Positions 1-19,980 of a stretch of 27,421 nt of DNA are shown piece by piece (the stretch's first letter is position 1; every line of letters starts with the position of its first letter). The stretch is from a virus, in the IMG/VR virus record IMGVR_UViG_3300008107_000542, positions 40,277-67,697 of that record, one strand, 5' to 3'. The translations under genes and the position numbers were made by a program. Below the pieces are notes generated by a model. That model was not told the origin of the DNA. It saw only the letters and a program-made list of their open reading frames with translations, and did not search any database.

Positions 1-407
1 CCCATTGCAATAAGATAGGGGTTATAGATAAATCGAGCATTAGTTATTAAGGGTTCTAGTTGCGATCTTACTGTGCCAGGTAAAACTGTGCTGATTAAAA
101 CAACTAATTGTTTTTTGTTAACATGTTTGTTAACTTCTTGTAAAATATTTTTAACAATAGTGTAATCAAAGTCTTTATTTGGCAAATGGCTTGTTGGCGT
201 TTCTCCCCCGTACATAGGATCGTGCGGAGTTGGTGCTGCAATAAAAATAAAACTACTGTTTTCTACTGCTTCCTTTATTGAAGACATCATAAGAAAAGCA
301 GGTGTCCTAGGCTCAACATCATAGCCCACTACTTGGTAGTGTTCTGCCATTACTTCGGCGCAATCTTGCCCAAGTTTCCCAACGCCAATCATAGCAACTT
401 TAGTCAT
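1..407 (-). CDS. UDP-glucose/GDP-mannose dehydrogenase family protein, N-terminal part (cut by window edge)
   Basis: This is an NAD-dependent oxidoreductase of the family that oxidises nucleotide sugars to uronic acids. Only the first 135 residues are in the window. The Rossmann fold is clear: GVGKLG at residues 8-13 is the dinucleotide-binding loop, and Asp30 after the second strand fits an NAD ribose ligand. The segment AAPTP (57-61) and the family signature STVLPGTVR (107-114) are present, followed by YNPYLIA, which matches the family's NPxxL region. The ATG at 407-405 has a GAGG ribosome binding site (415-418) seven bases upstream. It follows the SGNH gene after a 29-base gap holding a late-promoter-like box. 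It would supply an oxidised sugar donor to the glycosyltransferases of this operon. The exact substrate cannot be decided from this part. Confidence 0.85.
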   Translation of the reverse strand, partial: MTKVAMIGVGKLGQDCAEVMAEHYQVVGYDVEPRTPAFLMMSSIKEAVENSSFIFIAAPTPHDPMYGGETPTSHLPNKDFDYTIVKNILQEVNKHVNKKQLVVLISTVLPGTVRSQLEPLITNARFIYNPYLIAM

Positions 408-425
408 GTATATTCCTCAAAAAAC

Positions 426-433
426 TATTTATT
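426..433 (-). promoter_or_regulatory. T4-type late promoter-like box (AATAAATA)
   Basis: The minus strand reads AATAAATA in the only gap between the SGNH gene and the dehydrogenase gene. It matches the NATAAATA late-promoter consensus of T4-like marine phages. Transcription would begin about 5-6 bases downstream and give a leader of about 14 bases with a GAGG ribosome binding site. In AT-rich DNA an 8-base match is weak evidence alone; the intergenic position is what supports it. Confidence 0.4.
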
Positions 434-436
434 AAG

Positions 437-1234
437 TTAAAACCAGTCTATCTTTATTTCTTTATCCATTACGACTGGAGAATCGTTTGCGTCCAAATTA
501 AAAGTACGATGTATATCATCCGATGTTGCACAGGCTTTTAACAGTTTAGTAGATCTTACAGCATACTTGTAAGTTTCTTGTGGTATTTCAAATCCCACTT
601 TTTTTAAGTAACTGTAGTATCTTACTGGGGATGGATGGTAATCTTGAAACATTACTCCGTGATTAGGGTGCTCGTAAACATGTCCGTGATCCCAATAACT
701 GTGCATTTCTGTTTGGAATACATTAGGCAAGCATATATCTGTTACTGGTTTATATAAATTTAATATTTTTCCAATGTCTCGTGTTTCATCATTTTGATAG
801 TTCCAAGGAACACTGGTAAGAAAAATATAATCACACGGTAAGCTATCGAGAAAACCTTTAGTTAAACTTACTATATTTAAATCTCTTATAATATATCCTT
901 TTGTATCGGCAAATTTTTTAACAAAACTTTCAGGATAAAATTGTTGAGTATAAATGTTACCCGGAGTTTGCCAGTGGTCATTTAGATATCTATCTTCTCT
1001 ACAAAAAGTTGTCCACATCACTACAACTAAATCATCTTCTGTATAATTTAATCTAGTGTTACCTTCGGAAACTTTATAAGAAATAAAAGGATTGCCTGCA
1101 CCAGATTTTCCTAAATTAATAAATTCAGTGTCTGGCATTGTATGTGCAAGAATATCTGCCCAAGTCGGCCAAATATACTTTGTAAAGCTGCATCCGACTG
1201 TGATTAATCTTTTGTATTTTTTTAAAGTTATCAT
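437..1234 (-). CDS. SGNH/GDSL-type hydrolase-like protein
   Basis: A 265-residue protein laid out like an SGNH esterase. Block I is VGCSFT with the candidate nucleophile Ser16 close to the N-terminus. GKSGAGN (42-48) fits the block II glycine and block III-like asparagine region. A late DYHPSP (198-203) supplies candidate Asp198 and His200, in the place of the usual C-terminal catalytic Asp/His pair. Such enzymes remove acyl groups from carbohydrates or lipids, but many phage members are uncharacterised. There is no signal peptide or membrane segment. Its start overlaps the stop of the upstream gene by 4 bases (ATGA), so it belongs to the same operon as the glycosyltransferase and radical SAM genes. 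Deacetylation of a glycan is a reasonable guess but is not shown. Confidence 0.65.
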   Translation of the reverse strand: MITLKKYKRLITVGCSFTKYIWPTWADILAHTMPDTEFINLGKSGAGNPFISYKVSEGNTRLNYTEDDLVVVMWTTFCREDRYLNDHWQTPGNIYTQQFYPESFVKKFADTKGYIIRDLNIVSLTKGFLDSLPCDYIFLTSVPWNYQNDETRDIGKILNLYKPVTDICLPNVFQTEMHSYWDHGHVYEHPNHGVMFQDYHPSPVRYYSYLKKVGFEIPQETYKYAVRSTKLLKACATSDDIHRTFNLDANDSPVVMDKEIKIDWF

Positions 1235-2370
1235 AATTGTGTTGTGAATGTTGATTTTGAAAGCAACATATCAAAGTTATATTTACATACAGATCTAGAA
1301 AAATCTAAAAATTCTGCTAGTTCAGTTGTGTTTAATTTAGATAGGCGTTCAATTTCATCTACTACAGCTATCATTCGTTTTACATCATCTTCAATGAGAT
1401 CATATGCTTCATTAATATAAGGATGAAATGTTTTATAACCTATAGATCTAATTGCTTCTAAACTTCTAGGTCTACTTACAATTATAAAAGGATGAAAATT
1501 TGCAATTGGTTTAAAAAGCTTTTCACTTAAAAATCTTCCCTTTTCTAGGAAGTCATAATAATTTGTCTCACTTACTACACTAAAATAAGTTTCTTCATAA
1601 AATTTAGTAGTGCTTTGTAATAGGTTAACATGGTTAATTTCCATGTCTGTTCTATCTACAAATAACTCTGGCAACGATAAAATTTTATCTTCATTATTTT
1701 TTAACAGTTCTAATTCTGTATAGTGATTTCTATGAATATCTAAAATGTCTGTCCAAACTTTATTCCAATCTCTATTGTCATCTGAGCTGGCTAGACTTAC
1801 ATGTCCGTAATCTAATAAATTTCTAGCAGTTAAAAATGCTACCAGAGCAGGACGATGTAGTCTCCATCTTCTGTTTAAGTTTAAAAATTTTTTAGGATAA
1901 TTTTTTGTTTTAAGTGTATCTGGAAAAACATAACCCATACTAGTTATGTCATTTTTAGTAGAAATTTCAAAAACTCTAGACCATTCAGCTGCAATAGGTT
2001 TACAGTTATATTTTTTAGCTACTATATCAATTTCATTTTTTATATCAGCAGATTCACTTAATAATAATATTTGTTCTTCAGGAATTTTAAATTTAATAAC
2101 AACAAATTTATAAACACCGTCAACAACTGAATGAAATGCTTCATGGCTGTTGTTTAAAATTAACTTAATTCGTCCGCGGCGGATTGAAATTAGTATACTT
2201 GAAGGTACTACTTTGTTTAAATGTTCTAGCCCATCGCCGAGCATAAAGTCAACACAAAAATATTGTGCATCGTTAAACTTTCGCAGTTGTGGTAACACAG
2301 TTACATCTCTCATAGAAATTTCGCTGTTCCAACCAATGTAAGGAGTATTGTTGTCGTTTATAATAGACAT
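1231..2370 (-). CDS. putative glycosyltransferase-like protein of phage type
   Basis: A 379-residue protein that I cannot place firmly in a named family. The middle has a conserved-looking basic segment, FLNLNRRWRLHRP (162-174). It is followed by SVVSET (264-269), LSEKLFKPIA (281-290) and a PFIIVSRP stretch (294-301). An 'SEK..KPI...PFI' pattern resembles the nucleotide-sugar-binding C-terminal half of GT-B type transferases such as fucosyltransferases; this is inference from pattern only. There are no membrane segments or signal peptide. The ATG directly abuts the stop of the upstream radical SAM gene (TAAATG), and its own TGA overlaps the SGNH start by 4 bases. Its operon position supports a glycan-related role. 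Confidence 0.45.
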   Translation of the reverse strand: MSIINDNNTPYIGWNSEISMRDVTVLPQLRKFNDAQYFCVDFMLGDGLEHLNKVVPSSILISIRRGRIKLILNNSHEAFHSVVDGVYKFVVIKFKIPEEQILLLSESADIKNEIDIVAKKYNCKPIAAEWSRVFEISTKNDITSMGYVFPDTLKTKNYPKKFLNLNRRWRLHRPALVAFLTARNLLDYGHVSLASSDDNRDWNKVWTDILDIHRNHYTELELLKNNEDKILSLPELFVDRTDMEINHVNLLQSTTKFYEETYFSVVSETNYYDFLEKGRFLSEKLFKPIANFHPFIIVSRPRSLEAIRSIGYKTFHPYINEAYDLIEDDVKRMIAVVDEIERLSKLNTTELAEFLDFSRSVCKYNFDMLLSKSTFTTQL

Positions 2371-3336
2371 TTAAATCATTTCAAATTTTGGAATAATAAT
2401 ATCAGTACCGCAATGACAATGTTCTTTGCCGCAGATAATTTTTTTAGGGCCAACTGAACTTATGTCCTGTAATATGTGTCCTACCTTGTCACCTTGCCCG
2501 CAACTAGCTAAACTGACTTCTCCAGTAGGATTAATAAAAATAGCATCTCCTACATTGCACAGCCAGCCTTTAAAGAAATTTTCTCCGTTAACAATAATTT
2601 CATTACTGTTAGTAGCTGATTTAGACTGATCGTCGTATTTGTTAAAACTAACTGCTTTACTTTCTTTGTAAGGTTTAGGTAATGTAAAATTCATTTCTAC
2701 GTTATGTGTATCAATGAACGTTTTCTTTTCAGGATCTTTATATTGCCAAGGACCTGCATTAACACTCATTTCATCAAATAACGGTGTCCATTCGATAAAG
2801 TAGTTAGGCATAACTTCTTTTAAGTGATTGCCGTACTCTACAACTTCCCAGAATCGTTCTTCGTGCATCAACATCTTTGTACAAAGATAGTTTACTTTGT
2901 CACAGAGAAAAATATTGTTTTCTTTATATTTTTCTTTGTCAGAAAATTCAACATGGAAACTGGCAACAATATCATCAAACAAATGATAGTGTTTTTCCCA
3001 CCATGCTAACGGACGACTTAAATTAGTATTAACTGCTAATGTGCAGTCTGGCAATTTTTCTCGTAGCCATTCGCAGATAGGAATGAAATTTTTCCAAGCA
3101 GTAGGTTCTCCGCCAGAGAAGAAAAACTTATAATGTTTGTATCCTACTTTTTTATATCTTTCAATAATGATTTCTAAATTTTTAATATAAACATCTAGGT
3201 TATCATCATTCCTATGACTGCCGCCCCAATTGCCTGGATTACAGTAACTACATTTAAAATTACAAAAATTATTAACTTGCCATGTAACTGCCAAATACGG
3301 CTCAGGGGCTGTAATTGCTATTAACTTTTTGCCCAT
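2371..3336 (-). CDS. radical SAM protein with C-terminal SPASM/twitch-like cysteines
   Basis: A 321-residue radical SAM enzyme. Cys25, Cys29 and Cys32 form the CX3CX2C motif that binds the SAM-cleaving 4Fe-4S cluster, and SGGEP (74-78) is the SAM-binding glycine motif. The C-terminus carries further cysteines, Cys260, Cys279, Cys302, Cys307 and Cys309, in an order suggesting an auxiliary iron-sulfur cluster of the SPASM/twitch type. This is the conventional order, unlike the three radical SAM proteins upstream, whose auxiliary-like cysteines are N-terminal. SPASM/twitch enzymes typically modify peptides or sugars; the substrate here is unknown. Its start lies 16 bases inside the end of the upstream radical SAM gene, consistent with translational coupling. 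Confidence 0.85.
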   Translation of the reverse strand: MGKKLIAITAPEPYLAVTWQVNNFCNFKCSYCNPGNWGGSHRNDDNLDVYIKNLEIIIERYKKVGYKHYKFFFSGGEPTAWKNFIPICEWLREKLPDCTLAVNTNLSRPLAWWEKHYHLFDDIVASFHVEFSDKEKYKENNIFLCDKVNYLCTKMLMHEERFWEVVEYGNHLKEVMPNYFIEWTPLFDEMSVNAGPWQYKDPEKKTFIDTHNVEMNFTLPKPYKESKAVSFNKYDDQSKSATNSNEIIVNGENFFKGWLCNVGDAIFINPTGEVSLASCGQGDKVGHILQDISSVGPKKIICGKEHCHCGTDIIIPKFEMI

Positions 3337-4580
3337 CTATAAACCTCTTTTAATTCAGGAATTACATCTAAAATACTTTCATTGCGTACACTGTCTAATT
3401 CGTCATTGAATTTAATAAACTCTTGTATGCCGCCTTTGTTAGGATCACCGCTTTTTAAATTCTGACTTATCATTTTAAATCCATTACTAATGTGAGGATT
3501 GTACGAATATTTGTGAATGTATTCTCTGTAAAGTCTGCCTAGTTTTTCTTTTGAAAATTCAGGAAGAATCATGATATTTGAATACCACGGGCTAGTAGCA
3601 AGATTAAATCTAGGTGCGGTGTTTTTATCAATTAACTCATTGTCTATAAGATAGTCAAAGAATTTAGGAAACTGGAACACATTCCATATACTGATTGTTG
3701 GTGTTATTTGGAACTGTGCATGTGGTACTAGTGCTTTTAATTCGCGTAAATTTTTCTCAGTTCTTTCCCAGTCAGTGCCTTTGCGAATCAATTCAGCATG
3801 ATCTCCCATGCCGTCAAGACTGGCCCAAATAATTAGATTAGGGAACTTTTTCCAATACTCAATTAGATCTTTATCTTTAAATTTAAGACTGCTGAAATTT
3901 GTCGTGTAACTTAATTCAATAGTTTCATTTACTCCAGTTTCAATCCAGTAATCTAAACATTCATAATGCTCGGGAGTAATGATAATTTCTCCACCGGCAA
4001 AGTAAACTTCTACTACATCTTTGAGATACGGTTTGAGTTTAGTCATTAACATTTGATCATCGTTGTTACTGACTACCATTTTAGTCATATTAAAATGCTT
4101 GTCTAAAACTTCAACACCTTTATGTTCAATAAATTCCTGTGCCCATAGGCTAGAGCAACTTGGTCCGCAACTACGGCATTTCATATTACATAGATTGCTA
4201 AAACGAATATCCATATATTTTAATTTAAATTCGTTTAAGCTGCCATCGTCATTAGTATCTTCCACAATATCAACAAAGTCAAGACCTCTGCGTTTATTAT
4301 GACTCTGACGCATAGTCCACGTGCCTAATTTTTCAAGATCGTAGCATCGTTGGCATGCTTCAACAGGTTCGTCGTTGAGCATGTTTAGACGCATTTTCTT
4401 ATAATCATCACTGTTCATCATTTCTAGTACAGATTCGTTTGATTTAATTTCGCCCACTGGCTTATTACTATCAGCTACACAGCACGGCATTACTCTACGA
4501 TCTGGCCAAGCGTGAAAGTGAATCCACGGCAGTATACAAAAATGTTTTCCATTTTCAACAAGGTCTTTTACGTTTTTCAT
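3321..4580 (-). CDS. radical SAM protein with N-terminal SPASM-like cysteine module
   Basis: A 419-residue protein. The N-terminal ~90 residues contain FCILPWIH (14-21), then PCC (32-34) and a CQRC pair (Cys76, Cys79), a pattern like a SPASM auxiliary-cluster domain placed ahead of the catalytic domain. The radical SAM core follows with CNMKCRSC (Cys131, Cys135, Cys138) and FAGGE (194-198). The usual Pro after GGE is replaced by Ile. It is clearly paralogous to the next two upstream genes in layout and in the phrases 'MRLNMLN' and 'DIRFSN.CN.KCR.CG'. It starts 2 bases after the upstream radical SAM stop. The reaction is unknown; peptide or sugar modification is the usual role of related enzymes. 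Confidence 0.85.
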   Translation of the reverse strand: MKNVKDLVENGKHFCILPWIHFHAWPDRRVMPCCVADSNKPVGEIKSNESVLEMMNSDDYKKMRLNMLNDEPVEACQRCYDLEKLGTWTMRQSHNKRRGLDFVDIVEDTNDDGSLNEFKLKYMDIRFSNLCNMKCRSCGPSCSSLWAQEFIEHKGVEVLDKHFNMTKMVVSNNDDQMLMTKLKPYLKDVVEVYFAGGEIIITPEHYECLDYWIETGVNETIELSYTTNFSSLKFKDKDLIEYWKKFPNLIIWASLDGMGDHAELIRKGTDWERTEKNLRELKALVPHAQFQITPTISIWNVFQFPKFFDYLIDNELIDKNTAPRFNLATSPWYSNIMILPEFSKEKLGRLYREYIHKYSYNPHISNGFKMISQNLKSGDPNKGGIQEFIKFNDELDSVRNESILDVIPELKEVYRWAKS

Positions 4581-4582
4581 TC

Positions 4583-5821
4583 TTACTCCGTTAGATTCAT
4601 AAGTCTATTTAATTCTGGGAAAGTTTTAATAAAACTCTCACCTCTAATCTTATCAGTTGACAAGACATGCATAAAAAATGTCTTTTTATTTTCGTCCCAA
4701 GTATCACTTTCGTCTGCAAATTTAACTGCATCTGTTACGAGGTTGTTTAACAGTATCCATTCAGGGCCGTTAGACGATATAAATTTTTCTGCGTTTTCTT
4801 TTGCAGAGGCTTTTAAAATTTTTGGCATACTTTTAGCAGAATAGTAACTAGGATGCACAGCAAGATACAGGCTATGATACCAGTCTTCTAATCTTACAAT
4901 ATTTTTTTCTTTAAGATAATTGTAAAAGTCGCCAATGGTCAAATAATTAAAAATACTGAATACTGTGTTTATTTGAAAATGTACGTAATCTAATTGTCTA
5001 AAAGTAAGCAAATTACTTTCCACTTTCCCCCAATCTGTACCGTGACGTAGCCATTCTGCTCGTTCACCGTAATGATCAATTGAGCAACTTAATTCAACAC
5101 GTTTGAAATGTTTCCACAGATCAAGAATGTCATGATTTTTATATTTGATGTTACTGGCGTTGGTATTATAACGCAGTGTCACATCTGTTCTACCCTTGCG
5201 AATCATTTCTTCAAGGATTGTATAATGCTCGTCTGTGATCAATGGTTCGCCGCCAGCAAAGTATGCTAGATCAATATGTTCAATGTGTGTTAAAACTTCA
5301 TTAAGCAAATCGCCTTTGCCATCGTCAGCATGGATGATTATAGGATGTTTAGGATCAAAATTAGCTCGCTGTTCAGCGGCCCACTGACTGCTAAACTCTG
5401 CACCACAGGTACGACATTTAAAGTTACAAATATTACTAAAACGTATGTCGTAATATTTCATCTTGAAGTCAGGCATAGTACCGTCTTCTTGCGTCTGTGG
5501 CACTAGTTCATCAAAATCTTTACCCCAGTGTTCTTTACTATAATTTCTAAAACTATGGGGGCCAGCTTCTTCGTGTTTATAACAAAAATTGCAGATCTCG
5601 CTCTTTTTCTCATTTAACATATTAAGACGAATAGTTTTCATCTTGTCATTGTTAAAGGCATCTTTTAATGTTGTTTGTTTTGTATTACCAAATGGAGTTG
5701 TGTAGTTATTACTACAGCAAGGATAGATGTCACCTTTGGGAGTTACATTTAAGTGCATCCACGGAAACATGCAAAATACTTTGCTCTCATTAAGTAAAAA
5801 ATCTTTATCTATATTGTTCAT
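4583..5821 (-). CDS. radical SAM protein with N-terminal SPASM-like cysteine module
   Basis: A 412-residue protein if started at the ATG at 5821-5819. A longer reading frame opens at 5938, but its extra 39 residues lie wholly inside the coding end of the upstream gene. The chosen start leaves 15 residues before the FC of FCMFPW, nearly the same as in the downstream paralogue, so I prefer it. No strong ribosome binding site precedes it, so coupling through the 17-base overlap with the upstream gene is likely. The N-terminal cysteine module has Cys17, PCC (34-36), Cys77 and Cys80. The radical SAM motif is CNFKCRTC (Cys132, Cys136, Cys139) with FAGGEP (188-193). Function is as for its paralogues: an uncharacterised radical SAM modification enzyme. 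Confidence 0.85.
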   Translation of the reverse strand: MNNIDKDFLLNESKVFCMFPWMHLNVTPKGDIYPCCSNNYTTPFGNTKQTTLKDAFNNDKMKTIRLNMLNEKKSEICNFCYKHEEAGPHSFRNYSKEHWGKDFDELVPQTQEDGTMPDFKMKYYDIRFSNICNFKCRTCGAEFSSQWAAEQRANFDPKHPIIIHADDGKGDLLNEVLTHIEHIDLAYFAGGEPLITDEHYTILEEMIRKGRTDVTLRYNTNASNIKYKNHDILDLWKHFKRVELSCSIDHYGERAEWLRHGTDWGKVESNLLTFRQLDYVHFQINTVFSIFNYLTIGDFYNYLKEKNIVRLEDWYHSLYLAVHPSYYSAKSMPKILKASAKENAEKFISSNGPEWILLNNLVTDAVKFADESDTWDENKKTFFMHVLSTDKIRGESFIKTFPELNRLMNLTE

Positions 5822-7193
5822 TGGCAATTTCGCATAGTTTATAAAAACTTTCCATTTCTGGAAACACTTGTAAAAAGCTAGTGTCTCGTCTACTGTCCAT
5901 GGCACTAAACCAATTGAAGAAATCTTTACGTCCTTCAATTAGTTTTTCACGAGAATGATTTGTATTCTCCATGTAGTCCACTACACGTTTAAATTTTTCA
6001 TATTCAACGCTGGTAAATTTGTCACTGGCATTATCATCTACATTGTCTTCCATGAACTTTAAACTGTCTTTCATGTAAGGCATGAATTCTTGTTTAGGTA
6101 ATAGATTCATGTCATATTGAAGAGGATCTCGAAGATATGGAGTATCGAAACGTACACGATGTTCTTTTTTGTCATCATACCATCCGTACTGTTTGCGCCA
6201 TTCTAACATTTTTTCTAGTAAGGATTTAAATGTTGTAACACTTAAAATATTAAATGTAATCATAAAAGTAATAGGACTAGTTGTCTTTGTAAGATAAGTG
6301 TGAAAGTTTTCTTCCCATACTGTTAAGTCAAGTCCTGTGCGAATATATTCAGCACGAGGTCCCCATGTGTCCATACTAGTAAACAATTTAAAATTTCTAA
6401 TTTTGTTATTGACTTTAAGTTCTTCTACTTCTGTAGATAATCTATCAACTAACCCGGTCTTAACTCCAAGATTACTATTAACATTAAGTTCTAGCCAAGG
6501 CATAGGATCTTTGTTAATCTTGTCAAGTAATCGCCATGTGCTCACGTGCATTAGGGGTTCACCGCCTGTAACTCGCATAATGTTTAATGTCTTACGCAGT
6601 TCTGGCCACCAACGCCAAAATGCATCCACATACGGATTATCTTCTTCACGACTGTATAACTTCATCCAATCAATGTCACATCGATGATTCTTAACTGTGG
6701 TTACTGGGCCATGTTCTTTAATTTCGTTGAAGAATCTTGTACTATATTTGGGATGACAGTATCCGCATTTAAAATTACATTCGTTACCAAAATTAATCTC
6801 GATATATTCAGGATTAATATTTTGATCCCATGCACCTTTAGCTGTTTGTTCGTAGCGTTCTTCTGTAAAAATACTGGCATTACGAATATGGCGATCACTG
6901 ATATATTCAGGACCCATGGCTTCTATGTTCCAGCAATATTGACAACCGTCAGGCTTCTTACCCTCTAGCATCATCTTGCGTTCTTGTTTTTTGTGATCGG
7001 TATTGTGTAACGCACTAGGATTATCAAATACTTCAATTAAAGGGATCTTATGAGGAGCAGGATGATAACAACTGTGTGTTTCACCTGTTTGTAAGTACAT
7101 AGTCACATGATGCCATTTGGCAAGACAGAATGTAGGACTTACTTCATTCTCTACTTTTATCTTAATTGTTTTGATCTTTTCTTGTTCGTTCAT
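5805..7193 (-). CDS. radical SAM protein with N-terminal SPASM-like cysteine module (divergent)
   Basis: A 462-residue protein and the most divergent of the three N-terminal-module radical SAM proteins. The N-terminal module keeps FCLAKWHH (22-29), a single Cys42 in place of the PCC pair, and CQYC (Cys84, Cys87). The core has CNFKCGYC (Cys139, Cys143, Cys146) with the SAM-binding TGGEP (209-213). Only one cysteine where the siblings have two suggests a changed auxiliary cluster. The C-terminus ends with FLQVFPEMESFYKL, similar to the FPEL..L endings of the siblings, which points to tandem duplication. Its ATG overlaps the stop of the upstream broken glycosyltransferase gene by 4 bases. Confidence 0.85.
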   Translation of the reverse strand: MNEQEKIKTIKIKVENEVSPTFCLAKWHHVTMYLQTGETHSCYHPAPHKIPLIEVFDNPSALHNTDHKKQERKMMLEGKKPDGCQYCWNIEAMGPEYISDRHIRNASIFTEERYEQTAKGAWDQNINPEYIEINFGNECNFKCGYCHPKYSTRFFNEIKEHGPVTTVKNHRCDIDWMKLYSREEDNPYVDAFWRWWPELRKTLNIMRVTGGEPLMHVSTWRLLDKINKDPMPWLELNVNSNLGVKTGLVDRLSTEVEELKVNNKIRNFKLFTSMDTWGPRAEYIRTGLDLTVWEENFHTYLTKTTSPITFMITFNILSVTTFKSLLEKMLEWRKQYGWYDDKKEHRVRFDTPYLRDPLQYDMNLLPKQEFMPYMKDSLKFMEDNVDDNASDKFTSVEYEKFKRVVDYMENTNHSREKLIEGRKDFFNWFSAMDSRRDTSFLQVFPEMESFYKLCEIANEQYR

Positions 7194-7958
7194 TTAAAAT
7201 ACTTTCTCAGTGCATCTTGCATTTTTTTGTAGTAAACGGAACCGTCTGCATCAAGGTCAGCAATTTCAAGTCCATGAGTTTGTTTAATTTCTTGTCCGTA
7301 AAATTTAATTTTTTCTTCTGCATGATCAACAGTTTTATCTGCCCAATGTTCTTTCCAATAATCAGTCAAATATTCAAAATCTCTCACATTGGCATATTCC
7401 CAATCAGTGCAGTTAGTCATATAACAACCTTCTCTAGCACCTAGCATACTGTACAAGCCGTTGTCAACATCTCGCCCAACTGAGCACCATGTTATTAATC
7501 TGTAGTAGTTTTCCCACCAAACTTGTTTTTTCATATCAGTAACTTTAGCGCCTTGGTCCAGTGACATTTTAACACCTTCACGGAAACCTGCCCGCCATGC
7601 TTGGAACGGTGTGGCATTGGTGTAACTTTCGCTGTAGTTTGTATTAAACTGATGATATCTATGATCAAAACAAAACTCTACTAGACCTTTATGATCTGTA
7701 GGGTCTGAATTTTCGTGTGTTTTCATATCGTTAACAAACTTACGTGTCCACATCTTAAGGCCACCGTTACCATACATAAGATGATTAACGTGTACTCGTC
7801 CTGCCGGCTTTATGTGCGGCGTCGCTGCCTTTAACTCCATGTACACGTTTAGCCCATGGGACTTTTTTTAATAAGTCTGCATAATTTTTTTCTGCATTAG
7901 GCTCGTCATAACTTAAGAATACAATGTCTTGATCAATAACTTTAATTTTATTACTCAT
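7190..7958 (-). pseudogene. glycosyltransferase-like gene broken by internal deletion and frameshift
   Basis: Two overlapping frames together look like one gene. The first frame starts at the ATG at 7958-7956, which overlaps the upstream stop as ATGA, and reads 57 codons to a TAA at 7785. It contains VFLSYDEPNAE (13-23) and VPWAKRVHGVKGSDAAHKA (33-51), which I recognise as the start of a phage glycosyltransferase-like family. The second frame (from a GTG at 7846 to 7190, 218 codons) carries the C-terminal part: VNHLMYGNGGLKMW, then TPFQAWRAGFREGVKM. The frames meet between about 7811 and 7798. From memory of the family, a central stretch of some tens of residues with a DGD-type metal motif should lie between them and is missing. 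Either the gene is dead, or a C-terminal fragment is made from the GTG start, or the assembly is wrong here. Confidence 0.65.
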
Positions 7959-8527
7959 GCTTTTTCCTTAATTCCGTAATTAGGAAATCTTTTTAATGTT
8001 GCTACACTTATCTGAGAAAACTGTTGTTCGTGATCACTTTCAAAACTATAATCTATTTTACCATCAACTATGTTGTCAACATCAATTGTAAAGTATCTAT
8101 ATAGGTAATGAGGATCATCTTTTTTGCAAATATAAAATGTAATAGGCGGCAATACTTCTATTTTTTCTAGTGCTTCTTCATTAAAATATACTGTCCATTT
8201 ACTGTCATCTATACTGTGTTCAAGAACAACATTATCATCGGTGTGTAAGGTTACTGGCAAGATTTGAAATAAAGGTTTACTATACTCTACTGTATCATTT
8301 TCTGAAATTGTGATGCCTTTGCTTAAATTATAAAAATATTCTATATTATATTTTCTAAAATCTTTTTTACCATTAATAAAATCATCTATTAAAAATAGAT
8401 CAATTTCAAATATTTTATAGTTGTCTTCTTTGACGTTACTTAATGAATGAACAGTACCTTCATTATCGTAATGAACATAAAAAGAATTATATACTGTTCC
8501 GGAAGTTAAACGGTCTTTTCTGCTCAT
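7955..8527 (-). CDS. hypothetical protein (190 aa)
   Basis: I do not recognise this 190-residue protein. It is acidic and rich in Asp, Tyr, Ile and Phe, without signal peptide, membrane segment, cysteine cluster or catalytic-looking motif. It has a soluble alpha/beta character, with recurring short hydrophobic strands such as PPITFYICKK. It is joined by 4-base ATGA overlaps to a glycosyltransferase upstream and to the broken glycosyltransferase downstream. A role in the same glycan pathway is inferred from position only. A structural or accessory protein cannot be excluded. Confidence 0.6.
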   Translation of the reverse strand: MSRKDRLTSGTVYNSFYVHYDNEGTVHSLSNVKEDNYKIFEIDLFLIDDFINGKKDFRKYNIEYFYNLSKGITISENDTVEYSKPLFQILPVTLHTDDNVVLEHSIDDSKWTVYFNEEALEKIEVLPPITFYICKKDDPHYLYRYFTIDVDNIVDGKIDYSFESDHEQQFSQISVATLKRFPNYGIKEKA

Positions 8528-9354
8528 AAGTTTTCCAATTTTTTAATTATGTCATCAGTAAGAAATTCATCTTCTACATAATGAAATAGTCCGTGCTGTT
8601 GAAAGTTTCCAACTTTTAAATTACCGTCATCACTGAAATAAGAAGATATAGCCGATGTCCATTTGTTAGGAATATTTTTCCAGCCTTGTATTGCTGGTTT
8701 CATATGTGTAAAGCTTGGTACTAGTGTATCTTTGGTAGTAAATTGTTCTTCACAGCCCATAAACTTAAGAGCTAATGCTACACTTACATCCATACTGCAA
8801 AATGTCTGTGGAGAATTTTTAAGATGTAGCGGGTAAAATTTTCTCCACTGGTCAATAATAATTTCTAACCATTTAAAAAATTCATATGTTCTATCAATCT
8901 TTTTAAAATAAAACGCACCAGTGTAAGTGTTAACTAGATTATTAGCAGTAAACGTTTTTCTATAATAATCGTTGTTAATAATATTTCCTCGATAATCTAA
9001 TACATTCGAAGTAAAAAATAAATCTTTTTGTTCAAGATATTTCCACCAATGATCATTGCTGTTTAGCAATAGCATGTCAGTGTCATAGACAATATTTTCA
9101 ACAAATGGACTTATGTGTATTACTTTCCATCGATTTTCAATTTTCCAAGATGACCCTTCTGCATCGTCGCCCCAGGGAATTGGCAGTATGTGATCGAACG
9201 CATGTCTATACGATTCAGGTACTTCGTTATTAGTGACTAAACATGTTTCACGATATAACTTGTTGTTCTTTTTAATACTTAACGCCAAAGCGTAAGCCTG
9301 TCTTACGTAATCAACATTAGAATTTTGTGCTACAAAAATATGACCATTAGACAT
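8524..9354 (-). CDS. GT8-like glycosyltransferase
   Basis: A 276-residue protein resembling retaining GT-A transferases of the glycogenin/GT8 type. The N-terminus gives the opening strand (HIFVAQNSN) followed by an ALALSIKKNN helix. NIVYDTDMLLL (87-97) carries the DTD metal and nucleotide-sugar-binding motif (91-93). NTYTGAFYFKK is the acceptor-side strand, and FTHMKP near the C-terminus offers the His and Lys often used for metal and diphosphate binding. No membrane anchor is seen. It overlaps the upstream glycosyltransferase by 8 bases and the downstream unknown by 4. Sugar donor and acceptor are unknown; virion fibres or host surface glycan are both possible. Confidence 0.75.
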   Translation of the reverse strand: MSNGHIFVAQNSNVDYVRQAYALALSIKKNNKLYRETCLVTNNEVPESYRHAFDHILPIPWGDDAEGSSWKIENRWKVIHISPFVENIVYDTDMLLLNSNDHWWKYLEQKDLFFTSNVLDYRGNIINNDYYRKTFTANNLVNTYTGAFYFKKIDRTYEFFKWLEIIIDQWRKFYPLHLKNSPQTFCSMDVSVALALKFMGCEEQFTTKDTLVPSFTHMKPAIQGWKNIPNKWTSAISSYFSDDGNLKVGNFQQHGLFHYVEDEFLTDDIIKKLENL

Positions 9355-10183
9355 TGTTAATCTGCCTTAATAAACTATACTTGTTCATTACATGAACATC
9401 AACTGTTGATGTCTTAACTGGGGTAAAATCTGAAGAGTATCCTTCTTTCTGAACTAAAAACTTCATTACAGAATCTTCAATTCCAAAAAGAATATCAGAA
9501 TCTCGTATGTAAAATAGTTTGCCAGGTAATTGATGTGCAAATGTTCCTAGAGTAAATCCATTGAGCATGTGTATAGCAATACTAAATGCATAGTCATTCC
9601 TAAAATTAGTACTGTGTATTTGATACACTAACTTATAATAGGTCCAGTTTTCCTTAATATGCTTGACTAGTGCAAACAATAATTTTGTATTTGCTGTTTT
9701 CTTAAAGAAGAAAACTGTGGCCCAGTAAAAAGGAATACTGTGCTCACCTATTGTGGTAAATTCAGAAACATCACGCCATTGCGCTAGATCAAACCCTTGT
9801 TGATAAATTAAAAAGTCATGAGGTTGATCCCAGCAATAGCTTAATGTTTTTGAATTTACAATATAATCTGAATCAATTACCAGTGTGTTCTCGTATGGAG
9901 TAAGATCGAACACACTATAACGTGTACTATTTTTCCAAGGAAGTTTAACACTCTTATTTGCACCGTCGTAAAAGTACTTTGAATTGGCCTGCTCTTCTTG
10001 GTCTAACTCTATAATTTTATCAAACACTGAAATATCTAACTTGTCAAAGATAGTTTTATCATCTGTTATGACTGTCACAGGAACTTCTAAAAATTGTGTT
10101 ACCTTCTTTGCGGCGAACCAAGCCAGTTGTGCGTAATCAATTTCTTGATTATTATAGGCAAACAACACTACTCCGTTGGTCAT
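9347..10183 (-). CDS. GT8-like glycosyltransferase (second paralogue)
   Basis: A 278-residue relative of the neighbouring glycosyltransferase with the same plan. VVLFAYNNQ opens the fold and an AWFAAKKV helix follows. TLVIDSDYIV (100-109) holds the DSD metal-binding motif (104-106), and DVHVMNKYS near the C-terminus supplies the His and Lys expected in GT8-like enzymes. Identity to the other copy is low outside these motifs, so duplication is old or the two were acquired separately. It is joined to the upstream 115-residue gene by an ATGA overlap, making it the second gene after the sigma70-type promoter. Substrates are unknown. Confidence 0.7.
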   Translation of the reverse strand: MTNGVVLFAYNNQEIDYAQLAWFAAKKVTQFLEVPVTVITDDKTIFDKLDISVFDKIIELDQEEQANSKYFYDGANKSVKLPWKNSTRYSVFDLTPYENTLVIDSDYIVNSKTLSYCWDQPHDFLIYQQGFDLAQWRDVSEFTTIGEHSIPFYWATVFFFKKTANTKLLFALVKHIKENWTYYKLVYQIHSTNFRNDYAFSIAIHMLNGFTLGTFAHQLPGKLFYIRDSDILFGIEDSVMKFLVQKEGYSSDFTPVKTSTVDVHVMNKYSLLRQINNV

Positions 10184-10527
10184 TTTACTAGAGTCTCCAC
10201 TGATCTACTGTTCTTAAGTTGTGAGTACTTGGTGTAATACTCATTAATAGAACTTTGATAAATTACTATCAGTGTTTCTAAAAAATTTTTAAGATTTTCA
10301 ATGCTTATCGGAGTATGATTATCATCAATCAATACCATATCCTCATCATAGCCTAGATCCGTTAGTGTTTTAACAAAATTTATAAGGTCGCGAGTTACAG
10401 TAAATGTTCCACCGTTTTGATAATGGATCAAGTTTTGAAGAAATTCTTCTTTGAGTATGTGTTTTTGATTTGACAACGTAGTCATATAATTGGCTACGTC
10501 AAAGGCTTTTTGGACGATTGGATCCAT
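10180..10527 (-). CDS. hypothetical protein (115 aa), first gene of the modification operon
   Basis: A 115-residue, mostly helical, charged protein that I cannot name. Features are an N-terminal helix (AFDVANYMTTLSNQKHILKE), a YQNGGTFTV turn, a central DDNHTPISIENL segment and a polar C-terminal helix ending in SRSVETLVK. Similar small proteins occur in T4-like marine phages as conserved hypotheticals; this is recalled, not searched. The start is secure: AGGAG lies five bases before the ATG and a consensus sigma70 promoter sits 24 bases upstream of the ATG. Being first after the promoter it should be the best expressed gene of the island. A regulatory, scaffolding or substrate role is open. 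Confidence 0.75.
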   Translation of the reverse strand: MDPIVQKAFDVANYMTTLSNQKHILKEEFLQNLIHYQNGGTFTVTRDLINFVKTLTDLGYDEDMVLIDDNHTPISIENLKNFLETLIVIYQSSINEYYTKYSQLKNSRSVETLVK

Positions 10528-10599: not shown

Positions 10600-11586
10600 T
10601 TAAAGTGCTGTAGCAGAGCCAGTTGGTGCAGGAACATCTACGTTAGCACCCGACGGTCTTGTACATAGGCAAGAACTAGTTATAGTTCCAGTAACTGGCT
10701 CGTCAACTGGTGGTCCTAATCCTGTTTGATCGCCAGCATCATTATCGGTGAAAGTTATAGTAAATGCCAACGTGTTAGCAGTAGGTCTGCTTACACCAAC
10801 CAAATATCGATTTTCAGCATATTGTGTTACGCTAGAAGATTGAGTAAGGATATTACTGGCTGCGGCGCCAATGGTCAATGTTTGAAAACCTACAGCAGAT
10901 CCTACGCTACCGCCAGCATTAACTCCCCCGGTGATGTTTGTGCTAGATGCTCTAAAGTTAAGAGTACCAAAGCCGCTTAACATATTAGTCCAATCTGTGT
11001 CTTTGGTAGTTGCGGCAGCACCTGTTCTAGAAGCAGTAATCTGAATTGATCCGCCAGCGTTAAAGAAACAACGAATATGATCTGCTGCTGGTACTGTAAG
11101 ACTTCCTGAAGTGTAACCTGCAAATGTCAGGGTGACGGTATGTGTAATGCTAGCCCCTAAAGCTGATGTACCCCAATTTGTACCCCTAGTTGTTGATGTT
11201 AAAGATACACCCGAAGTAGTTTGTGCTGCTGCAACCACTGCTCGGTTAGCATTTACACCATTATCTGCAAAGTCTTGGTATTGGAGTCGAATAGCTTCTT
11301 GTACCACAGTTGACGGTGTAACATCAAATAAGGTCTGCCATGGGCTTCCAATGGTAGTACTAGCAGTAGAAACTCCAGTGTTAGTTTGATGTACCCTTGC
11401 TTTAGTAAGATCGTCCCTTAACTGGTCCCATTGAGTAGAAGTCATTGTAGTACTTTGACTCACTGGGCTACTTGCAATTGGTTGACCATAACCTGTCGTA
11501 CCAGTGCCAATCCCCATTACTGATGAGATCACAGCCTGGATATTATTATAATCTTGAGCCGTTGCTCTTGTTCCTGATCCTGCCAT
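10600..11586 (-). CDS. virion structural protein (328 aa)
   Basis: A 328-residue protein rich in Thr, Ser, Gly and Ala, with a helical N-terminus followed by beta-strand-type sequence, the composition expected of a tail or fibre component. The N-terminal phrases ATAQDYNNIQ and TQWDQLRDDL with a KARVHQT segment resemble structural proteins encoded beside fibre genes in T4-like marine phages; this is recollection of the family, not a search. A CLC pair occurs near the C-terminus. The ATG has an AAGGA ribosome binding site overlapping the stop of the upstream fibre gene, so it is read with the fibres. Its exact place in the virion is not known. Confidence 0.65.
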   Translation of the reverse strand: MAGSGTRATAQDYNNIQAVISSVMGIGTGTTGYGQPIASSPVSQSTTMTSTQWDQLRDDLTKARVHQTNTGVSTASTTIGSPWQTLFDVTPSTVVQEAIRLQYQDFADNGVNANRAVVAAAQTTSGVSLTSTTRGTNWGTSALGASITHTVTLTFAGYTSGSLTVPAADHIRCFFNAGGSIQITASRTGAAATTKDTDWTNMLSGFGTLNFRASSTNITGGVNAGGSVGSAVGFQTLTIGAAASNILTQSSSVTQYAENRYLVGVSRPTANTLAFTITFTDNDAGDQTGLGPPVDEPVTGTITSSCLCTRPSGANVDVPAPTGSATAL

Positions 11587-11596
11587 TTTATGTTCC

Positions 11597-13381
11597 TTAC
11601 AATATTATTGCTTCAACTAGTTTTACATCTTCAGAGTCGTTGGTTTCTAAAGCTATAGCAAACGTATCTGGAAAATTGCCGGCTAATATAGCTGTGTTTC
11701 TTAAAACATTTCTAGCTGCACCTGCATATCCATTTCCTGCTGCTACTAATTTGTCGCCTTTCTTTACAGATCCAATAACTTTTACAGGAACACGACCTTT
11801 AAGAGCTACATAAGTACCACCTTCTAGACCAGCATTCATCATATATGCAGGATTTGCACTCACTGCACCAAATGCTCTGTCACCAAATCTACAGGCTGTA
11901 ACTTCAGCGTCGCCGCCGACAGTCATTACTGTTCCTACTTCATATTCATCATCAGCTAGATATTTTTCTGCCAAGTCAGCAAACAATGCACTGGTAGCAG
12001 TACCTTGGAATAGTACAGCATTAAGGTTTCCAGCACTGTCTCTGCAAGGAACCGTAAACGGTGTTCCACTGCTGGCTGTGTCTATTGCAGTTGATCTGTA
12101 ATTTGCACCAACCAATAATGTGTTAGCTTGAGTAGCTGTTACTGCTGTAGTAGCTGAAGTTGCATTGCCTAAAAATCCAGCAGCACAAAGTCTGCCTGAA
12201 GAATCTCTTACTGCAACTGTGTTAACTGTTCCAACTCCTGCAGAATCAACAGCAGCGGATCTATAGTTTGCTCCAACTTTTAATTCATCTGCTCTTGTAG
12301 TTGTTCCAACAAACTCATTAGCATAAACTTTGTTAAAAACTGCGCCAGGAGCTCCGAGATTAGTATTTCCTGCAACGTCTGGAACTAATGCTGGAGCAGT
12401 TAGTCCAGTATAAGGTGCTGCTGATGCTTGTGAAGCTGTTATGAATCTAAATTTAGTAAGGTTACTAGGCTGTGTATTATCAGCTAATCTTACGTCAATA
12501 CCTTGATTTAAAGTTTTTCTTTCAATAATTACATCATTACTTGAAACTTTAACTTCTAAATCATCATCGTTACCTAGAGTATAACCTACGTCACCAAACT
12601 TAACATTAATATTTGGTGGACCAATAAAAGAAGTTGTACCTGTGCCTTTTTCAATAAAGTCGTCAGCGGTTCTTGTTTGACCGGCGCTGTTAACTAATCT
12701 TCTAGAAGCACTAGCAGTACCCCAAAATGCAATGGAAGGTACTGGGCCACCCGGACTTACGTCTTCAGGCTGTAAGTTAGCCAGTGTAATACCTTTCTTA
12801 ATTGCAGTGAAAGCGCCTGCGTTTCCTACGTTTAAAATATCTTGGCTAGCTGTGTTGAGTGTATACTCGCTGGACATAGAAATAGTATACGCTACTTTGC
12901 CGTCTACAAAGGCAGCAATTACAGCATATGGATTATTAGATGTGTCATATACTTTAATTGATTTTAATTGTGTTGTGCCAACGCCTGATAATCCCTGTGG
13001 ACCTACTAGTACAAAACTAGTCCCATTGTACACAAACAGCTGATTATTAGCAGTATCAAACCAAAAATCACCAGAACTTAACCCTGTTGGTTCGCTGCTA
13101 CTGGATTCTGAGCCGCCACTAGTTTTCCATTTAGTAGTGCTCTGATCATAAAATTTAATCTTTTTAGCAGAGCTGTCGTACCACATTTGTCCGTTTATAG
13201 GACGCGGAGGAGCACTAGGACCGGCAAAATTTTCTAGCATGTGTACTAGATTTTCATTTTGCGCTTCTCCGTAGCCAGCGTAATTTTTTCCTATAAGCTT
13301 AATATCTAACGTACTATCGATAGTTCCGTCTTCAACAACAGCTACAGTAGTTCCGTTATACTTATCTATGGTATATGCCAT
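11597..13381 (-). CDS. tail fibre protein, paralogue C (594 aa)
   Basis: The shortest of three fibre paralogues. Residues 1-130 are the shared N-terminal domain, with NLVHMLENFA (44-53), GQMWYDS (64-70) and two 'YDQ/YNGT' strand repeats ending at VGPQG; this is probably the attachment end. Residues 364-413 and 419-468 are two copies of a ~50-residue repeat beginning with a VGANYRS phrase. Residues 469-594 form a distal domain starting ADLAEKYLADDEYE and running through KGRVPVKVIGSVKKGDKL. The span 416-594 is matched along its whole length by the separate 179-residue protein at 19981. A TATAAATA box lies in the gap upstream and GAGG precedes the ATG. The distal part may be a receptor-binding or capping domain. 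Confidence 0.8.
   Translation of the reverse strand: MAYTIDKYNGTTVAVVEDGTIDSTLDIKLIGKNYAGYGEAQNENLVHMLENFAGPSAPPRPINGQMWYDSSAKKIKFYDQSTTKWKTSGGSESSSSEPTGLSSGDFWFDTANNQLFVYNGTSFVLVGPQGLSGVGTTQLKSIKVYDTSNNPYAVIAAFVDGKVAYTISMSSEYTLNTASQDILNVGNAGAFTAIKKGITLANLQPEDVSPGGPVPSIAFWGTASASRRLVNSAGQTRTADDFIEKGTGTTSFIGPPNINVKFGDVGYTLGNDDDLEVKVSSNDVIIERKTLNQGIDVRLADNTQPSNLTKFRFITASQASAAPYTGLTAPALVPDVAGNTNLGAPGAVFNKVYANEFVGTTTRADELKVGANYRSAAVDSAGVGTVNTVAVRDSSGRLCAAGFLGNATSATTAVTATQANTLLVGANYRSTAIDTASSGTPFTVPCRDSAGNLNAVLFQGTATSALFADLAEKYLADDEYEVGTVMTVGGDAEVTACRFGDRAFGAVSANPAYMMNAGLEGGTYVALKGRVPVKVIGSVKKGDKLVAAGNGYAGAARNVLRNTAILAGNFPDTFAIALETNDSEDVKLVEAIIL
11978..12292 (-). repeat. two tandem ~50-residue repeats in fibre paralogue C
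   Basis: Residues 364-413 and 419-468 share the order ADELKVGANYRS / ANTLLVGANYRS, then an AVDS/AIDT turn, then VRDSSGRL / CRDSAGNL, and finish with GNATSA / GTATSA. A third copy forms the start of the 179-residue protein encoded at 19981-20520. The repeat is probably a beta-structured shaft unit. Confidence 0.75.
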
Positions 13382-13403
13382 CTTTTAACCTCTTAATCTT
13401 ATA

Positions 13404-13411
13404 TATTTATA
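13404..13411 (-). promoter_or_regulatory. T4-type late promoter box (TATAAATA)
   Basis: The minus strand reads TATAAATA, an exact match to the T4 late -10 box, in the 40-base gap between two fibre genes. Transcription would start near 13398 and lead directly into the 594-residue fibre gene, with GAGG (13388-13391) before its ATG. It could boost expression of this fibre relative to the others. Confidence 0.55.
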
Positions 13412-13421
13412 TCTTACTGCA

Positions 13422-16400
13422 TTAGTGCAGATCTACCCACGAGCCCGGAGCAACATAGGCTTGAACTCTATTAGCATCGCTATTGTAAATTAATTCCCCA
13501 TAATTTAAGAAATTAAACACTCTAGCCGCTAATTGTGCATTTGTATAAGTTGGTAATCTAAAACTAGAACCGCTAATATTACTTGTGCTAGTGTTAGAAA
13601 TAACAATATCACCGAATAAATTAGTAGTAGGTCGTAGCCCAAATGCAGCACCAGGTGTAACCTGCATCACGTACTGTTCTTGTACGCTGGTATTATCAAA
13701 TGCACTTATTCGAAGACCGGATCCTCCAGAACGAATAGTAATAGCATTGGTGCCAGAAATAAGATTAAGTGTGCTAGTTCCTGTTACATTCAATGCTGGA
13801 TTTGTAATATTTCCTGTTACGTTACCTGATACGTTACCTGATAAATTACCGTTAATACCGCCCGATACTGTTAGACTCGTTAGCGTTCCTAAACTAGTAA
13901 TATTTGGCTGTGCTGGTGTCAGTACATTTCCTGTAAGGTTTCCAGATACACTACCTGTTAGTGATCCAGTTACTGCGCCACTTAAATTACCCACAAACTG
14001 TGCCACAGGACCAACAGTACTAATTACTGTTCCGCCCGTGTTTGTTGACAGCATGTTACCTCTTAAATTACCTACAACGTCTACTAAAATTGTGTTAGGC
14101 AATGGAAGAGTTTCTAAATATTTCCAACCAATTGATCCGCCAGTATAAATGAATCCAAGTGCGGTATCTTTTTCATTTAAGATAACATCGTCGTCTGCAC
14201 CTAACAACATATCTAATACTAGTTTGAATGACAGGTCGTTACCATCATACATAGTAAATGCCAGTCCAGGTGCAAAACTGTATGTGCCGCTTACATCAAA
14301 TCTAAATGCGCTGCCTGTGTCAACAAAGTTAGTTGGTGTAAGTACCGTTGATTCGCCGGTAAATGTAACACCGACAGGAGTTGGATGATCGGTTAAAAAG
14401 TTAGGATATGTAACTTTATCAACTGTAACTCGTGTTACGCCCGGAGAAGGGTTAGTTGCAGACACTAATACATAGTCTTTAAACCCACCACTTACGCCGC
14501 TTACAGGATCAATTAGTGCTCCGTCAATGGTTATTGTGTCGTTAGTTCTATAAGCATAACCGTGATTATTAGGATCAATATTAATATTAACTTCAGAGTA
14601 AATTCCAACTACACTAATGTCTAGATCAATAGTAAGGCCAGCGCCTGAAATAGAATCAGTTGTTGTAGCTAAATTTAATTTTGAAAATGGAACTGTAACG
14701 TTCGGTGATACGCCTCTGATGGTCCCAGGGTCATAATCTCTATATCGAATTAATCGTAAATTGTCTGTGTCAAATGCCGAATCAGCATCAACAATTCTTA
14801 CAGTACTACCAATTGCTCGTAAAGAATCTCTTGGTAGAACAAAATCTCTACCTCCTGTACTTCTTGTTCTAGCTAAAATTCTATCAGAAACAACTAGTTC
14901 ATAATCGGCTGATTGAGAAATCCAAGGGCGATTAAAATCGTCAACATACTTTTTAGTAACTAATGTATCGTCCGTATCGCCGCCAATAGTAATAACGCCA
15001 GAGCCTACAACTTTAGAACCTAGTAAGTCAACTTGTCCTGTGCTAGGAAGAAGCTGTAAGTCGCCTCGAGAATAAATCTTGTCATCTGTAATTGTAAGGT
15101 TAGCAGTATGGATAGTTTTAATACCAATAGTTCTTACATTGTTAATGTTGCCTTCTGCTGGTACTGTTCCGCCAGTGGCAGTTACTGCTAATGTTGAACT
15201 AGTCTTTGCAGTAACTATATGATAGTTATTTGTACCAAGATTACCTCCACCGCTGTCAGCTGTGATATACGATCCAACAACAAACTGAGTAGTAGAACTT
15301 AATCCTGTAATATTATAGGTATAAATTTGAGAACCTGTGTCAACTAAATCGCTGACAAATCCGTTGCTCACCGGAGCTGAGGTAATACCAGTAATACCAA
15401 AACCTGCCGCTTTTGTAATGCTATTAGCAATTACGTTTGCTGAAAGAACTGTTACATCATTAATTCTGTATTCTTTAGTATCTGCAACATTAAAATGTTC
15501 TGAGCTATGCCAAGATCTTTCAGTATAGTTATAAACTAATTCATGATTGATAGGACCGTCTATTAAATTTCCACCTTTTAGAACAATGCCACCAAGGTCG
15601 ACTAAAGCACTATCAGTATTTCCATCAGCTAAAATTATATTTTTATCTTTTACAATTAAATCATTAGTGGTAATAGATGTTGTTGAACCTGTTACTGTAA
15701 GATTGCCGTCAATCCTAGCATCACCACCAACATGCAATGTAGCGGTAGGAACTGTTTTAAACACGCCTAGGTACTGAGAACTTGCATCAATAGAAATAGC
15801 ATCATATTGTGTGCCTGCATTAAGTGTAGTAATCTTAATGTCTTGGCCATTTCTGTTACTTTGTAATCTAAAAGTAGCAGCATCAACTAAAATAGTATTT
15901 TCTTGGTTAACACCTAACTTCAAAGGATTAATATTTTGAATTGACAGTGTACCAAACAGGGTATTATTTTGTGTAGCTAATAACACATCTGCAGGAGAAA
16001 TTAGTGTGCCGGTTGCAGAAACTAGAGCATCGGCACTAGTAGCTCGTGTATTAAATTTAAATACGTTTAATGGATCATTAAACACGCCCTGTGTAAATCC
16101 AGGTTTAATTACACCAGCAAAGTCTCCAATTTGTCCAACTAATGTAAACTGTTCGTGCTTACTAAAGATACCCATGACTTTACCAGCAGACCAAAGTGCT
16201 GTAACAGTACGTTGATTACCCTGACTGTCGGAGACTGTTACTACATCAAATCCGCTCTTACCTTGACTGTCTTTCCATATTTTACCAGCAGGATACTGTC
16301 CCACGCCTGTATAAAAATATAATTGATTCTCAACGTTATCAATCCAAAAGTCTCCTTGACCTGGAGTAATTGGGGCGGTGTTACTTACTATTGGACCTGC

Positions 16401-19965: not shown

Positions 19966-19980
19966 ATTAGACTCTTTAAA

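Follow-up and report, generated by a model that had tools for sequence, protein, structure and literature searches.

The stretch under study is a 27,421-nt window of viral DNA (positions 40,277 to 67,697 of IMG/VR record IMGVR_UViG_3300008107_000542), which form the final 27.4 kb of a contig 67.7 kb long. Its minus strand carries, directly behind a tail-fibre module, a densely packed island of genes for radical S-adenosylmethionine (SAM) proteins, glycosyltransferase-like proteins and other sugar-related enzymes. Along the direction of transcription the order is F897, F1079, F594, X328, X115, GT278, GT276, X190, X218, rS1, rS2, rS3, rS4, X379, a gene for an SGNH-like hydrolase and UGDH. A preliminary description had counted ten open reading frames (ORFs) and one partial gene between positions 1 and 10527; the ORF list contains 11 and one partial gene. 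It had also noted overlaps of 4-17 bases between most genes, and such overlaps are found at seven of the 11 junctions, alongside one abutting pair and gaps of 2, 29 and 108 bases. This count takes rS2 from the ATG at 5821: the ORF (4583-5938) opens with TTG, the ATG agrees with the homologues and overlaps rS1 by 17 bases. The range 1-10527 proved too narrow: X328 (10600-11586) also belongs to the unit, and the island continues on the same strand for ~13 kb past the window.

All four radical SAM genes described earlier were recovered: rS1 (5805-7193), rS2 (4583-5821), rS3 (3321-4580) and rS4 (2371-3336). rS1, an N-terminal twitch-type protein, and rS2 and rS3, N-terminal twitch/SPASM proteins, match the NCBIfam model NF033640 (N_Twi_rSAM, curated cut-off 170 bits) over its full length with 313, 374 and 371 bits, respectively. 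rS4 is shorter and, judged by profile scores, of another radical SAM type: its match to NF033640 is partial and below the cut-off (38.9 bits), and it passes Pfam PF04055 (35.9 vs. 29.5 bits). Assignment of rS4 to the viperin-type antiviral proteins was rejected (33.1 bits vs. the NF038283 cut-off of 180), as was membership in MoaA, for which the score lies far under the cut-off. The three Cys of the CxxxCxxC motif (residues 25-32 in rS4) are invariant in 26 rS4, 15 rS1 and 19 rS3 sequences. In rS4, five more invariant Cys are located near the C-terminus (260, 279, 302, 307 and 309). Compared with the related contig L024, dN/dS (the ratio of nonsynonymous to synonymous substitution rates) amounts to 0.014-0.033 for rS1-rS4, 0.035 for F594, 0.025 for GT276 and 0.040 for GT278; the values are rough because dS exceeds 1. 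Their similarity indicates functional genes rather than a special constraint on the radical SAM genes.

AlphaFold2 models of rS4 and rS1 (predicted local distance difference test, pLDDT, 85.9 and 84.6) align with solved radical SAM enzymes in fold comparison. For both proteins the prediction is thus a radical SAM barrel, and the lack of a foldable barrel, which according to the preliminary description would have refuted its reading, was not seen in these two. The rS4 model is closest to BlsE (Z 15.0, 4.2 Å, 268 aligned residues), followed by ChlB (Z 14.6), CteB (14.5), anSME (14.2), MoaA (14.1) and DesII (13.4). rS1 aligns with SkfB (Z 12.4, 4.3 Å, 235 aligned residues) and with BlsE (Z 12.1). 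The structures of BlsE, DesII, BtrN, MoaA and anSME comprise a radical SAM barrel and a further domain, and they align with rS4. BlsE, DesII and BtrN act on sugars or cyclitols. Identity of rS4 to BlsE, DesII, MoaA and anSME is 12-17%, and to BtrN 20% over a short stretch, so that function is not transferable from either comparison. No particular function of rS4 emerges from the fold comparison: BlsE, ChlB, CteB, anSME and MoaA are tied. Searches of the PDB with single rS4 and rS2 sequences gave no match, and those with rS4 and rS1 profiles gave weak radical SAM matches only. The nearest viral models to rS1 are proteins of uncultured Caudovirales phages (template modelling score, TM, 0.75); because of these matches, rS1-like proteins can be regarded as already known in phages.

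The genes upstream of rS1 include two paralogues, GT276 (8524-9354) and GT278 (9347-10183). Neither has a match in Pfam, and no GT8 Pfam model was hit among 18 members of their family. A joint profile matches glycogenin (GT8) with E = 2.7e-5 over the first ~105 residues only, so GT276 is probably a GT8-like (glycogenin-like) glycosyltransferase. X218 (7190-7846) is a relative of GT309, a protein with an invariant D64xDN encoded beyond the window. Since the match covers only GT309 residues 99-242, preceded by 19 X218 residues, the DGDN of GT309 (64-67) is missing from X218, which is truncated at its N-terminus. X218 is nevertheless kept at 80-85% identity in contigs L024 and L091. GT309 has no match in the PDB. 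X190 (7955-8527) is a small protein, and a comparable one lies between GT276 and GT309 in many loci. X379 (1231-2370), by its motif a possible GT-B type glycosyltransferase, and the SGNH-like hydrolase (437-1234; motifs GCSFT, GxGN and DYHP) have no credible family or PDB match. Several of the glycosyltransferase assignments and the SGNH assignment are motif-based. UGDH (3-407), the N-terminal part of a nucleotide-sugar dehydrogenase, scores 46 bits in Pfam against a cut-off of 27. It is interrupted by three Ns at the window border and continues outside.

Conservation was assessed in IMG/VR viral contigs with three seeds: rS4 (best 80 of 125 loci, 60-100% identity), the structural gene P203, which lies outside the island (best 80 of at least 599 relatives), and GT309 (best 80 of 98). 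These sets contain near-identical contigs and are skewed to close relatives of the query. With more than 6.5 kb upstream required, 72 of the 80 rS4-bearing loci could be scored (seven were too short and one had no separate rS4 ORF), and the order rS1-rS2-rS3-rS4 is kept in all 72. Among the seven shorter loci, three contain rS1, rS2 and rS3, and four rS3 and rS2. The number of rS2-type genes varies: of 79 loci, 26 have a single one, 44 have two and 9 have three. An rS3/rS4 overlap of 16 bases, measured from the first possible start codon, is present in 57/79. Median identity to the window, calculated for BLAST-detected homologues only, is 72% for rS1, 71% for rS4, 66% for rS3 and 55% for rS2-type proteins (paralogues included), followed by GT309 (44%), SGNH (40%), GT278 (32%), GT276 (31%) and X379 (29%). 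Outside the core, the C-terminal part of UGDH and the B12-type radical SAM protein reach 70% and 73% where present; downstream genes differ from contig to contig.

In the P203-seeded set, X328 was found in 63/80 loci. Where at least 1.6 kb follow X328 (n = 47), X115 and GT278 are each present in 46, and GT309 follows GT276 in all seven loci with room. GT309 lies behind GT276 in 70 of the 80 GT309-seeded loci; the other 10 come from near relatives, where the seed corresponds to the distant GT309 copy. Thirty-one lack 3.5 kb of room, leaving 39, and in each of these radical SAM genes follow the frame X328-X115-GT278-GT276-GT309 (37 recognized by profile, 2 by Pfam). The sets differ: 10 loci have the full quartet, another 10 have of these four only an rS1-type gene, 17 have more divergent NF033640-like sets, and 2 have other radical SAM subfamilies. 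This means, the frame of fibres, X328, X115, two glycosyltransferases, GT309 and radical SAM genes is general among the loci examined, the quartet is one version of it, and the radical SAM set varies by lineage. The genes thus form one conserved unit. A pattern of scattered, independently lost and never co-occurring genes, which according to the preliminary description would have refuted its reading, was not seen. A loose moron island, in which unrelated metabolic genes were collected at a recombination hot spot, would account for the variable downstream genes and for the lineage-specific radical SAM sets. It is very improbable in view of the 72/72 and 39/39 counts, and fixed order, conserved overlaps and low dN/dS also speak against it.

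The fibre side of the locus (11597-20520) comprises the three fibre-type genes F594, F1079 and F897, the last with a collar domain, as well as P203 and P179. P179 (19981-20520) shares with F594 its matches to PHROG C-terminal regions and a weak match to a Peptidase_G2-like domain; because of these shared matches, P179 may be a free-standing copy of the domain. Between F594 and the enzymes lie X328, which appears to be a fibre-like structural protein and is a candidate substrate of the cassette, and X115 (10180-10527), a small conserved protein and possible assembly factor. The site beside tail fibres and a conserved structural protein fits a modification of the virion surface. Our tentative reading, which we rate just short of an even chance, is a tail-fibre-linked cassette that modifies a tail appendage in a phage lineage allied to giant phages of the RaK2/Atu_ph07 type. 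GT276/GT278 together with a GT309-type enzyme would attach a glycan to a fibre-like virion protein; X328 is the most likely one, and X115 might assist. rS1-rS4 would then edit this glycan by 5'-deoxyadenosyl-radical chemistry, i.e. dehydrogenation, epimerisation, deoxygenation or cross-linking, and the downstream UGDH, DegT-like, amidinotransferase-like and B12-type radical SAM genes might supply unusual sugars. A tail appendage is suggested because of the site behind the fibres, the travelling partnership with X328 and the presence of another radical SAM cassette around a likely virion protein in cultured phages (see below). The conserved glycosyltransferases suggest a glycan, and the conserved quartet suggests that C-H edits follow a set order on an acceptor that is itself conserved. 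Gene content, order, conservation and location, as well as the predicted barrel folds of rS1 and rS4, are established directly; substrate, order of steps, chemistry and timing we infer.

The polymerase of the lineage is 50% identical to that of Sinorhizobium phage Phosso, and P203 is 55% identical to its Phosso and 42% to its RaK2 counterpart, which by sequence places the lineage near Phosso, Agrobacterium phage Atu_ph07 and RaK2/121Q-type giant phages. As to the 200-kb mark of jumbo phages, the contig of the window measures 67.7 kb, and others that bear this cassette extend to 333 and 244 kb. In a collection of 50,697 cultured phage records, no match was found to the island DNA, rS4, rS1, GT309, X115 or GT276, and rS3 gave three weak matches (~25% identity). 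In Phosso and Atu_ph07 a different radical SAM cassette occupies this site, following P203 and a fibre with ends similar to those of F594. It encodes a cupin-like protein, a radical SAM protein, a 306/296-aa protein, a 259/263-aa protein and more radical SAM proteins. The 306/296-aa protein, annotated as hypothetical (L352:24321-25241 and L353:20098-20988) and present in three records only, ends in DYCHTSCHASCHSSRSRR (Phosso) or DFCHSSCHASCHNSRSRR (Atu_ph07), with the pattern CHxSCHASCHxSRSRR. Counted back from the major capsid protein gp215, the Atu_ph07 protein is gp170. According to PMC6102473, Atu_ph07 virion proteins identified by mass spectrometry are mostly encoded in three clusters, one of them comprising coding sequences 170-215. 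By its number, gp170 would open this cluster.

Both cassettes share the site and the presence of several radical SAM genes. The one in Phosso and Atu_ph07 differs in having no match to the rS1-rS4 profiles, no recognized glycosyltransferase and a precursor-like protein with a CHxSCH tail. One alternative is that the enzymes mature a virion protein in the manner of ribosomally synthesized and post-translationally modified peptides (RiPPs): without any sugar substrate, they would cross-link or epimerise its residues, and the glycosyltransferases would form a separate layer. The Cys/His-tailed neighbour in both phages points in this direction, as do two Phosso radical SAM proteins whose best, far sub-threshold, matches are peptide maturases such as PapB and DynA, and the presence of SkfB, ChlB, CteB and anSME among the structural neighbours of rS1 and rS4. 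These neighbours, however, also include BlsE, DesII and BtrN, and the Phosso and Atu_ph07 proteins do not match the profiles of the window's enzymes. Furthermore, a narrow Cys/His-motif filter yielded no precursor-like ORF in the rS4-seeded loci among the first 120 of 308 matches, which include the 10 from these loci. We consider such sugar-free maturation quite unlikely for the window. A broader proposal is that giant phages mature a tail-appendage protein by multi-enzyme radical SAM chemistry, as bacteria do with peptide natural products, acting in one lineage on glycosylated X328 and in Phosso and Atu_ph07 on the Cys/His tail of a virion protein; this is conceivable, if doubtful.

Relatives of the cassette also occur in bacteria. 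A scan of species genomes with two short peptide patterns from the rS4 alignment, which missed relatives found by a later search, uncovered two loci. One is a contig of a Rhodobacteraceae metagenome-assembled genome (MAG) that carries the phage cassette in full; the other is a deltaproteobacterial groundwater contig of 4.6 kb, on which an rS3-like, an rS4-like and another radical SAM gene adjoin a nucleotidyltransferase gene. rS4-like matches (E <= 1e-10) were detected in 33/290 genomes of the phylum of the latter bacterium. Among 47 stretches around such matches, GT309-like genes are present in 10, compared to 0/19 unmatched controls. One 20-kb stretch (L168, G204:C1:745200-765199) contains 12 ORFs labelled rS1-, rS2-, rS3- or rS4-like. 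X115 was found in 1/290 and 1/299 bacterial genomes, the second being the above-mentioned Rhodobacteraceae contig. The best evidence for a functional tie of X328 and X115 to the enzymes comes from genome G169: there, a bacterial contig with pheT (L146, G169:C21:125000-139884) combines X328-X115-GT278-GT276-163aa-GT309 in one unit with radical SAM genes that belong to other subtypes (24-39% identity to rS2/rS4), and P203 was not found in this genome. In two bacterial genomes (L131:3849-8950 and L132:1722-8051), flagellin genes adjoin radical SAM relatives of rS2-rS4, which hints at flagellin modification; Pfam was used to check three of the four flagellins. A general flagellin link of the bacterial relatives was rejected as too weak; the query flagellins had been taken from the same two loci.

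The sugar-related surroundings bear on a second alternative, the remodelling of the host surface. Here, the enzymes would alter O-chain or capsule of the infected cell and thereby block adsorption of released virions or of competitors (superinfection exclusion). Sugar-type genes flank the core. Beyond the window follow the C-terminal part of UGDH, X169, a B12-type radical SAM gene in two frames, a gene for a DegT-like aminotransferase, a gene whose product matches phrog_25854 and presumably resembles an amidinotransferase, and genes for a possible oxygenase (sub-threshold in Pfam), a GT-B-like 366-aa protein (by motif alone), X204, a 1542-aa repeat protein and GT309. Among the bacterial relatives, one (L101) adjoins a sugar nucleotidyltransferase gene, others lie near carbamoyltransferase genes, and one GT309-like protein is fused to a family-2 glycosyltransferase domain. 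The same role is proposed for pelagimyophage glycosyltransferases in PMC7029224, and that host-recognition cluster also gains radical SAM cassettes. Host-surface remodelling does not account for the persistent association of X328 and X115 with the glycosyltransferases in 46/47 phage loci and one bacterial contig, or for the cassette without a recognized glycosyltransferase that occupies the same site in Phosso and Atu_ph07. We regard it as somewhat unlikely, yet as the strongest of the alternatives.

Two side observations concern the genes beyond the window. The B12-binding type radical SAM gene (L006:16549-18587, contig 36549-38587) consists of two overlapping ORFs in different frames and is a single long ORF in some related contigs (e.g. 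L082, 739 aa); either a frameshift or a sequencing error could be the cause. The 1542-aa protein (L006:8105-12733) is composed of ~100-aa repeats with a GT309-like part at its end, and in other contigs a relative of it directly precedes rS1, replacing GT309.

Several observations weigh against tail-appendage modification. X328 displays no obvious modification motif, and its mean column identity is 28% compared to ~70% for rS1 and rS4; a small conserved substrate fits these data equally well. Two P203-seeded loci are exceptions: in L234, X328 was not found within 10 kb downstream, and X115 is missing from L243, where X328 is present and followed by 2 kb of room. GT309 and X379 belong to no confirmed family. 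The Phosso and Atu_ph07 cassettes consist of different radical SAM families, without a recognized glycosyltransferase, and the presence of gp170 in the virion is deduced from gene numbering. RaK2 and XbC2 have P203 in a different neighbourhood, and the 40 kb examined contain no gene annotated as radical SAM. Near the bacterial relatives, carbamoyltransferases were found in 5/47 stretches (four of them query loci) and flagellins in only 2/47 (both query loci), each with 0/19 in controls.

If tail-appendage modification is right, the host-facing parts of the particle are modified by a conserved radical pathway of four enzymes in an uncultured phage lineage that is widely recovered. This would connect the enzymology of radical SAM proteins with the receptor biology of phages and the modification of virions, and thanks to the cassettes of Phosso and Atu_ph07 the idea can be tested in cultured phages. 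Should giant phages indeed mature such proteins, radical chemistry would serve them generally as a means to armour or diversify their adhesins.

Radical SAM genes in phages and virion glycosylation are known in kind. PMC5332604 counts 12 radical SAM genes in one T4-like genome, and PMC7150976 mentions a prevalence of such genes in Tasman Sea samples. The ordered, tail-fibre-linked cassette, which probably decorates the particle or the host surface, appears to be new; no description of it was found in the open-licence PMC literature. rS1-rS3 belong to the NF033640 family, of which at least three paralogues are combined here with rS4 in fixed order. An assignment of the lineage to the 'Moraphages' (PMC12619734) was rejected: the word 'radical' is absent from that paper's text and the hosts are mostly Bacteroidota; it is not evidently the same group. 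The same paper, citing Freeman 2023, reports glycans on capsid and tail tube subunits of mycobacteriophage virions. As proposed for the window, glycans are attached to virion proteins; the target differs and no radical SAM enzyme is mentioned there. Also comparable are the pelagimyophage host-recognition clusters with glycosyltransferases described in PMC7029224; radical SAM cassettes set two related genomes apart there. Like the window, they combine tail fibres, glycosyltransferases and radical SAM cassettes in a variable region. That region is termed hypervariable, whereas the radical SAM core in the window is the best-conserved part of the island core.

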